Shown in pieces: positions 19,014 to 21,210 of a DNA stretch of 64,000 bases. Location: NCBI RefSeq assembly GCF_011326725.1, contig NZ_JAANCO010000002.1:124001-188000 (forward strand), read 5' to 3'. Origin of the DNA: Microbacterium excoecariae (GTDB lineage Bacteria > Actinomycetota > Actinomycetes > Actinomycetales > Microbacteriaceae). The position numbers and the translations under genes were made by a program. The notes under the pieces were generated by a model. The model did not search any database. It was not told the origin of the DNA and was given only the letters and a program-made list of their open reading frames with translations. Numbering within the stretch: position 1 is the stretch's first letter; each line of letters starts with the position of its first letter.

Positions 19014-19712
19014 ATGACTGATCTGATCGACACCACCGAGATGTATCTCCGCACCGTCCTCGAGCTCGAGGAGGAGGGGATCGTGCCCCTGCGCGCGCGC
19101 ATCTCGGAGCGACTGGGGCACTCGGGCCCGACCGTCTCGCAGACGGTGGGACGCATGGAGCGCGATGGGCTCATCCGCGTGGGCGAGGACCGGCGCCTCG
19201 TGCTCACCGTGGACGGACGCCGGAAGGCGATCGAGGTCATGCGCAAGCACCGGTTGGCGGAGCGCCTGCTCAGCGACGTGATCGGGCTCGACTGGGCCTA
19301 TGTGCACGAGGAGGCCTGTCGCTGGGAGCACGTCATGAGCGAGCTCGTCGAGCGCCGGCTGGTCGAGCTGCTCGGCCACCCCGACGAGTCCCCCTACGGC
19401 AACCCCATCCCCGGGCTGGGCGAGCTGGGCGATGTCGCGACGTCGACCACCTTCGACGAGGGCGTCATCGGCGTCGTGAAGAAGCTGGACCTCGCGGGGG
19501 AGCCGATCCGCGGGACGGTGCGCCGGCTCGCCGAGCCCGCGCAGGTGGATCCCGAGCTGCTGAGCCAGCTGCGGGACGCCGGGGTGGTCCCCGGCGGGAC
19601 CGGGGCGTTCGAGTACAACGAGGGGTATGTGCTCGTCCGCATGGACGGCGCCGAGAACGGCCTCGAGCTCCCGATCGACGTCGCCTCGCACGTCTTCCTC
19701 GTCGCCGACTGA
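19014..19712 (+). CDS. ideR: Iron-dependent transcriptional repressor, DtxR/IdeR family
   Basis: 232 residues. Winged-helix DNA-binding domain (LIDTTEMYLRTVLELEEEG, recognition helix SGPTVSQTVGRMERDGL), then the metal-binding dimerisation domain (MRKHRLAERLL ... HEEACRWEHVM with the expected Cys, Glu and His ligands), and a C-terminal SH3-like domain. Close in sequence to DtxR/IdeR rather than MntR. It binds TTAGGTTAG-type boxes when Fe(II) is plentiful. A matching box lies in this window at 46800-46818, upstream of heme genes. TAGGAT near 18973 may be its -10 box. Confidence 0.93.
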   Translation: MTDLIDTTEMYLRTVLELEEEGIVPLRARISERLGHSGPTVSQTVGRMERDGLIRVGEDRRLVLTVDGRRKAIEVMRKHRLAERLLSDVIGLDWAYVHEEACRWEHVMSELVERRLVELLGHPDESPYGNPIPGLGELGDVATSTTFDEGVIGVVKKLDLAGEPIRGTVRRLAEPAQVDPELLSQLRDAGVVPGGTGAFEYNEGYVLVRMDGAENGLELPIDVASHVFLVAD

Positions 19713-19754
19713 CGCGCGGCCGTCAGCGGATTCTGGTCCGGGCGTGACTTTGCC

Positions 19755-19770
19755 GTTATCTTTCGTTACC
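19755..19770 (+). promoter_or_regulatory. Direct repeat GTTATC-N4-GTTACC upstream of the M23 peptidase
   Basis: GTTATC (19755-19760) and GTTACC (19765-19770) are spaced one helical turn apart, and a related GGTGATACC follows at 19775-19783. A tandem regulator site is possible; an MtrA-like regulator of cell-wall hydrolases is a guess. Confidence 0.35.
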
Positions 19771-19781
19771 ATTTGGTGATA

Positions 19782-19908
19782 CCCGGCGCCCGCGCCGGGG
19801 GCTCTGTGGGAAATCGCCTCGTGTGGTTCGCCCCTCCCGCAGAGAGACACTGTGCCCCCAACCAGTGCTGGCGAATCACCGCGTTCCCGACGCGCGAGGC
19901 GATGGAGG
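19782..19908 (+). ncRNA. Structured 5' leader of the M23 peptidase with two competing folds
   Basis: A hairpin at 19782-19799 (7-bp stem) is followed by two alternatives. Fold A pairs 19802-19811 with 19835-19844 (10 bp, one GU). Fold B pairs 19813-19821 with 19895-19903 (9 bp, perfect), 19825-19832 with 19870-19877 (8 bp, one GU) and 19848-19852 with 19863-19867. Fold B closes directly against the GGAGG ribosome site (19904-19908). Strands 19813-19832 lie in the loop of fold A, so the two folds compete or form a pseudoknot. This is riboswitch-like architecture, but I do not recognise a known class. Confidence 0.5.
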
Positions 19909-19917
19909 AACCCGATC

Positions 19918-20841
19918 TTGGCAGACGACATGACGGCGCGCGACGAGCTCGCCCCCGACGACGCGCAGGTACCCGCTGCGCAGCCCCTCACGAGCCGCAA
20001 GATGCTCGCCGCCGCCCGCAAGGACATGCGTGAGACAGAGCGCGCGGCCCGCCGCGAGGAGGCTCACCAGGCGTCGCGCCGCTTCACGCCTCTGCGTGCC
20101 GCGGGAACGCTGGCCGCGGTGTGTGCGCTCATCGCCGGCGTCGCGATCCCCGCGTACGCGGCGACCCAGCAGGACACGTCCTCTCAGACGGCGAGCGTGC
20201 GCGAGGCCGCCGAGGGCGAAGCCCAGTCGCTCGAGGTGAGCGAGGACGCCGCGTCGACCGACCTCACGGCGACGACCTACGCCGCGACCTCCTCCGAGGA
20301 GATCGAAAAGATCGAGGCCGAGCGCGCCGCCCTCGAGCGCGCCGAGGCCGAACAGGCTGCCGCGGAGGAGGCTGCCGCGGAGGCGGCGGCCTCCGCCGAG
20401 GCGACCGAGGCCGCCGAGACGACCGGGACTGTGGCGAGCGCCGAGGCGCCCGCGCCGACCGTCGTCGACGGCGCCGTGAACCCGCTGCCGGCGGGATCGT
20501 ACTACGTCAGCCGCTCCGTGAGCTCCGGCCACGACGGCACCGACATGGTCGCTCCGGCCATGACGCCGATCTACGCCGTCAAGTCCGGCACCGTGACCGT
20601 CTCGAGCGAGGGCTACGGCGGCTGGGGCGTGACGGTCGCGATCGATCACAACGACGGCACGCAGACCCTCTACGGGCACATGACGTACGGCACGCGCCAG
20701 GTCGCGGCGGGCCAGGCCGTGGAGGCCGGGCAGATCATCGGGTACGTCGGCTCGACCGGCCGCTCGACGGCGAACCACCTCCACATCGAGCTGCGGATCA
20801 ACGGCGTGATCGTCGATCCGATGAACTACCTGCCGATCTAA
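19918..20841 (+). CDS. Secreted or membrane-anchored M23 (LytM-type) peptidoglycan endopeptidase
   Basis: 307 residues. Cytoplasmic N-terminus (about 60), one membrane helix or signal (LRAAGTLAAVCALIAGVAIPAYA), then an Ala/Glu-rich coiled linker (about 90-175) and a C-terminal M23 domain. Metal and catalytic residues sit in SSGHDGTDMV and ANHLHIELRING; the family's HxxxD appears as HDGTD, with final HLH. Cleaves peptide cross-links in the cell wall. TTG 19918 is chosen as start because GGAGG lies 9 nt upstream; ATG 19930 is the alternative. The leader carries competing RNA folds. Confidence 0.9.
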   Translation: MADDMTARDELAPDDAQVPAAQPLTSRKMLAAARKDMRETERAARREEAHQASRRFTPLRAAGTLAAVCALIAGVAIPAYAATQQDTSSQTASVREAAEGEAQSLEVSEDAASTDLTATTYAATSSEEIEKIEAERAALERAEAEQAAAEEAAAEAAASAEATEAAETTGTVASAEAPAPTVVDGAVNPLPAGSYYVSRSVSSGHDGTDMVAPAMTPIYAVKSGTVTVSSEGYGGWGVTVAIDHNDGTQTLYGHMTYGTRQVAAGQAVEAGQIIGYVGSTGRSTANHLHIELRINGVIVDPMNYLPI

Positions 20842-20988: not shown

Positions 20989-21210
20989 ATGGACCAACGC
21001 CCACGCATCCGAACCACGGATGCGCTCGGACGCTATGTCCTGAGGCATTGTGCGCACACGAGCCGCGGCGCCGCCGCGGTGTGCCATCGAGGCGCTGTCA
21101 TTGCGACAGCGCCTTTTTTCGTGCCCTCCGGCCCGCGCGACGACAATCCGCAACTCCCGGAAGCCATCCGGGAAGGGAAGAAAGGTCGCATATGCGCACC
21201 CTCGTGTTGA
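20989..21210 (+). other. Candidate leader-peptide ORF spanning an intrinsic terminator, ahead of the HNH gene
   Basis: A 73-codon frame starting MDQRPRIRTTDALGRYVLRH with GAGAGGAAAG 4-5 nt before its ATG. It contains a hairpin (21004-21011 with 21017-21024), runs through the intrinsic terminator at 21091-21119, and ends 18 nt inside the HNH gene. Translation through the terminator would favour read-through, so an attenuation leader is plausible. It could equally be a short regulatory RNA that merely has an open frame. No protein family recognised. This 350-bp gap (20842-21191) holds no other gene. Confidence 0.4.
21091..21119 (+). terminator. Intrinsic terminator or attenuator inside the HNH leader
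   Basis: 9-bp stem GGCGCTGTC/GACAGCGCC with loop ATTGC followed by TTTTTT, a textbook Rho-independent terminator 73 nt before the HNH start codon. Confidence 0.88.

Follow-up and report, generated by a model that had tools for sequence, protein, structure and literature searches.

Introduction

The preQ1-II and SAM-II riboswitches are translation-controlling pseudoknots whose crossing helices lie beside the Shine-Dalgarno (SD) sequence. The leader RNA described here likewise brings crossing helices up to the SD, but it is larger, its SD adjoins the helix that we call P1, and any part of the SD itself in a pseudoknot is putative. In gene context it resembles the c-di-AMP riboswitch ydaO/yuaA (RF00379): both are structured leaders ahead of NlpC/P60 or M23 wall hydrolases, both occupy a dtxR-leader-hydrolase slot, and both probably act on translation. 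The two differ in helices, helix order and sequence, and the RF00379 model does not match the new leader. For the nlpC gene of Corynebacterium glutamicum, PMC9960051 describes a ydaO riboswitch that most likely acts on translation, and a promoter that is also under the control of MtrA. As with orphan riboswitch candidates, the leader is a conserved, structured 5' element on one gene class; it differs from them in having been found so far in Microbacteriaceae only, by models that may overlook copies of greater divergence.

The window analysed here is a 64,000-nucleotide stretch of the Microbacterium excoecariae genome (contig NZ_JAANCO010000002.1, positions 124,001 to 188,000). A first-pass annotation, made from its letters, had proposed a riboswitch-like leader with two mutually exclusive folds, A and B, ahead of an M23 peptidase gene, and had suggested covariation among relatives and an Rfam search as checks. 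Here we show how the leader is built, which genes it precedes, how widely it occurs, and how it relates to the c-di-AMP riboswitch of sister families. It provides a concrete, family-wide orphan riboswitch candidate with a tight gene association.

Results

A structured leader between dtxR and an M23 peptidase gene

The locus reads, on the plus strand, serC, a DtxR-type metal-dependent regulator (19014-19712; PF02742 and PF01325), the leader, an M23 peptidase gene (19918-20841) and an HNH gene (21192). The DtxR, M23 and HNH domains were identified with Pfam, and the gene order is also syntenic in relatives, among them M. barkeri, M. oryzae, other Microbacterium and Labedella phragmitis; the regulator gene served as our syntenic anchor. 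The peptidase, recognized as such by the first-pass annotation, matched PF01551 with 97.5 bits (E 5.4e-28). It starts with TTG (19918-19920), and its N-terminus looks secretory.

A predicted promoter, with a -35-like element GTGACT (19744-19749) and a -10-like element TACCAT (19767-19772), both conserved in relatives, precedes the leader, and we expect transcription to start at about 19779-19781. The pattern TGACN-N17-TANNNT stands before 88 of the 91 distinct Microbacterium leaders, with a spacer of 17 in all 88; in other genera, a comparable TGACN-N17/18-TANNNT precedes 48 of 58 distinct leaders (spacer 17 in 45, 18 in three). The distance from promoter to leader is mostly narrow in both groups. 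A generic sigma-70 promoter scan found no promoter at the leader, and a terminator scan found no terminator-like site there. Start codons are nearly constant: TTG in 86, GTG in one and not assigned in four of the 91 distinct Microbacterium leaders, and TTG in 53 and GTG in five of the 58 from other genera, so that ATG was assigned in neither set. It is as if weak initiation of the hydrolase belonged to its control.

Within the promoter lies a direct repeat, GTTAT-CTTTC-GTTACC (19755-19770), to which the response regulator MtrA may bind. We treat it as a lead: it resembles the Streptomyces MtrA consensus given in PMC5650626, but that consensus repeats every 11 nt and this one every 10. Five leaders from other genera (L091, L102, L106, L188, L196) carry a GTTACC-N4/5-GTTA-like direct repeat that also resembles the consensus in PMC5650626. 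It lies 5' of the -35 element, unlike the similar repeat of Microbacterium, which overlaps the promoter spacer.

From 5' to 3', the promoter is followed by P0, the 5' strands of PA, P1 and P2, the 3' strand of PA, a variable stretch (containing P2b in some leaders), the 3' strand of P2, P3, the 3' strand of P1, the SD and the start codon. PA, the fold A of the first-pass annotation, pairs CTCTGTGGGA (19802-19811) with TCCCGCAGAG (19835-19844) through ten pairs, one of them G-U. Fold B consists of an outer helix, P1, in which ATCGCCTCG (19813-19821) and CGAGGCGAT (19895-19903) form nine pairs, and an inner helix, P2, in which GGTTCGCC (19825-19832) and GGCGAATC (19870-19877) form eight, again with one G-U. 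Both folds lie exactly where that annotation had placed them when read from the sequence, and P2 can be extended by a ninth pair (19824/19878), giving strands 19824-19832 and 19870-19878. The SD, GGAGGA (19904-19909), follows directly on the 3' strand of P1, which ends at 19903, so that fold B does abut the ribosome-binding site of the TTG start as described; all 12 Microbacterium leaders that were aligned have this SD unchanged.

Three further helices had escaped the earlier description. P0 is a 5' hairpin (19782-19788 with 19793-19799) seen in the sequence, and the region 5' of PA folds better than its shuffles, with a mean z of -2.5 in 82 distinct Microbacterium leaders and -2.1 in 58 others. 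P2b (CACTG/CAGTG, 19848-19852 with 19863-19867) is variable in relatives: in alignment A3, which leaves out L002 with its misaligned P1, four of its five pairs are invariant and one shows a two-sided change, and in many other Microbacterium it is swapped for longer, different stretches. P3 (19880-19884 with 19890-19894) covaries in both leader sets.

Covariation in both folds and in two sets of leaders

Folding of the window leader alone gave a minimum free energy of -61 against -54.8 for shuffles (z -1.61), and nine of 200 shuffles folded equally well. Single-sequence folding is barely above chance and too weak to decide anything. Evidence for the helices comes from comparison. In a first Microbacterium alignment of 11 leaders (10 distinct), two-sided changes were found at 13 of 35 pairs, against 6.2 after shuffling, a count reached in none of 500 shuffles.

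The larger Microbacterium set comprised 97 matches (91 distinct), from 96 loci, to R1, a covariance model of fold B and its hairpins from which fold A is absent; fold A was added for the pair count only, which covers PA, P1, P2 and P3 and leaves out P2b. Two-sided changes occurred at 24 of 30 pairs in the 91 distinct leaders, compared to 14.9 in shuffles. The covariation score was 0.256 against 0.130 (0/500 shuffles as high), where the shuffles ignore relatedness among leaders; sliding the partners, a control that keeps relatedness, gave at most 0.083. The 68 matches (58 distinct) of the other-genera model R2 showed two-sided changes at 24 of 26 pairs (17.3 when shuffled) and a score of 0.530, against 0.235 in shuffles (0/500) and at most 0.119 with slid partners.

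Each helix contributes. PA, although absent from both models, showed two-sided changes at every one of its 10 pairs in Microbacterium (77.5% of cells paired) and at nine of 10 in other genera (83.6%); its outer two pairs are often broken in Microbacterium, where 44 of the 88 cells of one and 58 of the 90 cells of the other are unpaired. The corresponding values in Microbacterium and in other genera were 5/7 pairs (87.5% paired) and 5/6 (98.8%) for P1, 5/9 (94.4%) and 6/6 (98.6%) for P2, and 4/4 modelled pairs (95.0%) and 4/4 (94.6%) for P3. In other genera there are 98 G-U cells and only 26 A-C cells, the excess that RNA of the mRNA strand should show. In Microbacterium the counts are 138 G-U and 101 A-C, and in PA alone they are equal (57 and 56).

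These comparisons show PA, P1, P2 and P3 to exist as RNA helices. Two-sided changes, the sign of common structure that the first-pass annotation had looked to, are thus present in both folds and in both leader sets, and its view of the leader as riboswitch-like and structured holds for Microbacterium and for other genera alike: conserved, covarying structure, as expected of a riboswitch, lies in the 5' leader in both groups.

Distribution of the leader and of its relatives

R1 matched 296 of 366 Microbacterium genomes (E<=0.01), nearly always once per genome, and gave no match in the other 70. Among 249 Microbacteriaceae genomes it was found in Microbacterium only (four genomes) and in no other genus; searches across more than 40 genomes were run with stricter filters that lose weak matches. 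Leaders of other genera, which we reached through the neighbouring dtxR gene, have the same helix order with different sequences. Over 53 such loci, nearly all from other genera, R1 had 26 matches with E values of 10 or less; of the best 19, all but one fell at the leader, the exception being L090 (3405-3466).

We cut out 45 leaders from other genera, of which nine less regular ones were at first left unaligned, and built R2 from 28. Alignment A5 omits L018, L090, L101, L106, L109, L113, L192 and L211; in A6 all eight return, together with six of the nine irregular leaders, L112, L114 and L179 still being absent. R2 matched 47 of 69 dtxR-downstream loci, a count that contains the 28 leaders it was trained on. 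Among 179 genomes of the family it matched 85, which represent 45 of the 85 genera and again include the genomes of the training leaders; it found nothing in the remaining 94. Of 248 genomes sampled across the order, R2 matched three, each from Microbacteriaceae. The model fails to find the Microbacterium copies, that of the window among them, and may likewise overlook divergent ones elsewhere, so the lack of matches outside Microbacteriaceae in that sample is no proof of absence. Layout, position and weak R1 scores link the Microbacterium and other-genera groups, and no single model covers both.

The RNA is not universal within the family. Five close Microbacterium relatives (L027, L030, L031, L032, L034) keep the gene and, by eye, lack the RNA, their SD coming almost directly after the promoter; the RNA is therefore dispensable, and these relatives offer built-in controls. 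At two other loci (L187, L213) a hydrolase is apparently present without the RNA, also by eye. Nine loci (L182, L190, L197, L198, L199, L202, L207, L209, L215) have the HNH gene about 0.4 kb or less after dtxR, with neither RNA nor hydrolase between.

No known class accounts for the leader. Rfam 15, searched over the whole window at gathering score, returned only three tRNAs and msiK RNA, all away from the leader, and leaders of other genera matched no family in 13 loci (E<=1) or six loci (E<=10); the Rfam check that the annotation had proposed thus leaves the leader without a class. Our literature search, which was not exhaustive, found no description of it. The leader is apparently an orphan, undescribed structured cis-acting RNA class of Microbacteriaceae.

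Downstream genes are predicted wall hydrolases

We judged downstream frames only if they were complete and longer than 150 aa, in rows among which the same genome can recur; 53 of 97 Microbacterium rows lacked such a frame and stayed unclassified, and of the 68 rows from other genera five were truncated. An M23 motif was present in all 44 complete Microbacterium frames. The 63 complete frames from other genera comprised 50 with an NlpC/P60 motif, eight with an M23 motif and five with neither; by eye, those five are three NlpC/P60 variants, one of them (L253) confirmed by Pfam, and two CHAP proteins. Altogether, a simple motif of M23 or NlpC/P60 type is present in 102 of 107 complete frames, and all 107 look like wall hydrolases (M23, NlpC/P60 or CHAP-like) from their predicted products.

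The association extends to copies away from the usual site. Two extra copies off dtxR (L251, L252) both precede M23 genes, and the L253 copy, about 2 kb beyond dtxR, precedes its NlpC/P60 gene; a further copy ahead of an NlpC/P60 gene (L254) is one of a tandem pair (all by Pfam). L039 and L070 form another tandem pair, and in these tandem arrangements each hydrolase gene has its own RNA copy. A search of viral contigs yielded only one weak relative, of M23 type. Since predicted hydrolases of three catalytic types lie downstream, the RNA tracks wall hydrolysis rather than one enzyme chemistry.

The leader stands where sister families carry a c-di-AMP riboswitch

The first-pass annotation noted that actinobacterial wall hydrolases carry ydaO riboswitches and doubted that the motif was present here. 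That doubt was well placed: RF00379 did not match anywhere in the window when searched at gathering score, nor in 19700-20050 at E<=10, and the leader is not a member of RF00379. The model was above cut-off in 0 of 90 Microbacteriaceae genomes (control, 2 of 14), and diadenylate cyclase (PF02457) was found in 0 of 60, the source genome included (control, 11 of 14). A sub-threshold RF00379 match in one genome (G446; E 3.7e-4, 25.4 bits against a cut-off of 38) was judged to be chance, lying inside a long open frame that is FAD synthetase-like by eye. Because Microbacteriaceae appear to have lost c-di-AMP, it is implausible as the ligand; these counts refute the idea as far as genomes can, and we regard c-di-AMP as a very unlikely ligand.

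The association itself was borne out in sister families. Among 79 genomes sampled across the order, the cyclase was present in 51 and RF00379 in 48, and in none of the five Microbacteriaceae of that sample; in three of its families (f4, f10, f12), the five genomes sampled from each had neither. Seven of the 12 best RF00379 loci in this sample were preceded, within about 0.1-0.55 kb, by a gene for a DtxR homologue of 53-67% identity; serC was also seen at two of the seven, and HNH at two. Downstream of six of these seven, Pfam identified five NlpC/P60 proteins and one M23 protein, and the seventh (L259) is NlpC/P60-like by eye. By synteny, then, the leader RNA occupies the position held by the c-di-AMP riboswitch in sister families.

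This shared position could mean descent: the leader would be a strongly diverged ydaO riboswitch that kept its place and changed structure and ligand. The syntenic locus, the like kind of downstream gene and the sequence CAGCUACCU, which looks similar to the ydaO 3' end, speak for it, as do two single leaders, L193 and L204, that align to that 3' end better than 60 of 60 and 59 of 60 shuffles. For the consensus, however, the likeness of CAGCUACCU is chance, 325 of 500 shuffles aligning to the ydaO 3' end equally well; RF00379 stays unmatched even at E<=10, helix order differs, and the best R2 matches in ydaO loci fall elsewhere, two ydaO sites being overlapped only by weak matches of 10.6 and 6.3 bits. 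We consider descent improbable. Since the tests of descent were negative apart from those two leaders, replacement is the simpler reading, and the leader RNA probably replaced the c-di-AMP switch at this locus. A more specific version, which we put forward tentatively as somewhat short of an even bet, is that a new riboswitch class arose in Microbacteriaceae and took the place of the c-di-AMP riboswitch after c-di-AMP was lost, with an unrelated sensor for some other sign of wall or turgor state. The family would then be a natural experiment in what senses wall state once this second messenger is gone, and it raises the question of whether a riboswitch slot can outlast the RNA that fills it, one RNA giving way to another.

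Possible coexistence of the folds and proposed control of translation

The best explanation, in our judgement a likely one, is a cis-acting leader of Microbacteriaceae (about 19779-19917) that works like a translational riboswitch and was put in place of the lost c-di-AMP switch. Translation is the likeliest level of control because there is no terminator-like site and the SD comes directly after P1. In the mechanism that we propose, P0 and PA would fold first in the nascent leader; P2 and P1 would then close, either with PA as a pseudoknot, which we prefer, or instead of PA. Closed P1 would form a duplex within the ribosome footprint beside the SD, reducing initiation at the weak TTG, and a cellular signal that shifts the balance of folds would let hydrolase output track the state of the wall.

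Whether PA coexists with P1 and P2 is a point on which we depart from the first-pass annotation. Its statement that the two folds cannot nest together stands, in that PA crosses both P1 and P2; mutual exclusion does not follow, because the folds share no nucleotide and the linkers PA/P1 and P2/PA are short (2 nt in the Microbacterium structure and 0 nt in that of other genera), which makes a pseudoknot holding PA together with P1 and P2 at least as plausible and leads us to lean towards it. A two-state switch, in which PA (ON) and P1/P2 (OFF) never form together and a signal picks one, is possible though on balance doubtful. Nested-fold energies are nearly equal, with means for folds A and B of -61.7 and -62.7 in 11 Microbacterium and -51.2 and -51.1 in 28 others, fold B being better in seven of the Microbacterium leaders and 17 of the others; such equality fits both readings. 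In many other-genera leaders, moreover, GACG at the PA/P1 border could pair with the CGUC that ends the P2 5' strand, lengthening PA at the expense of P1/P2, which speaks for a switch. The 0-2 nt linkers suit a pseudoknot better. Computed SD pairing hardly differs between the two folds (means of 0.71 and 0.71, and of 0.72 and 0.65), and neither it nor the fold energies told an on state from an off state. A rigid-body steric model holding PA, P1, P2 and P3 together had zero penalty, as had both of its controls, so that it is without power.

The leader might also be, instead of a metabolite riboswitch, the target of an RNA-binding protein or a small RNA, or a temperature or ion sensor; conserved unpaired stretches, such as the CCUAG that many other genera have in their P3 loop, could bind a protein. 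We hold this to be a minority possibility in view of the riboswitch-like, multi-helix architecture and of neighbours that are the genes also flanking ydaO in sister families, among which no dedicated binding protein stands out, neither point being strong. That the inverted repeats are not RNA at all, and act as operator sites or encode a leader peptide, is extremely unlikely: a direct repeat is indeed present in the promoter, yet the long-range pairs cross and lie downstream of the promoter, other genera show G-U rather than A-C cells, and model matches are 104 to 136 nt long, not in steps of three.

Other features of the window

A short frame, RIRTTDALGRYVLRH, lies at 20989-21210, upstream of the HNH gene, and has relatives with the pattern SIQTVDARAxFxIRHS in other Microbacteriaceae. 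The pattern was found in 12 of 23 stretches, of which the window and L026 are the same place and L217 is doubtful. By eye, a hairpin and a T-run come after or inside the frame, which is a candidate for a conserved small protein or an attenuator-like leader. The msiK RNA lies on the minus strand at 918-975, above gathering score.
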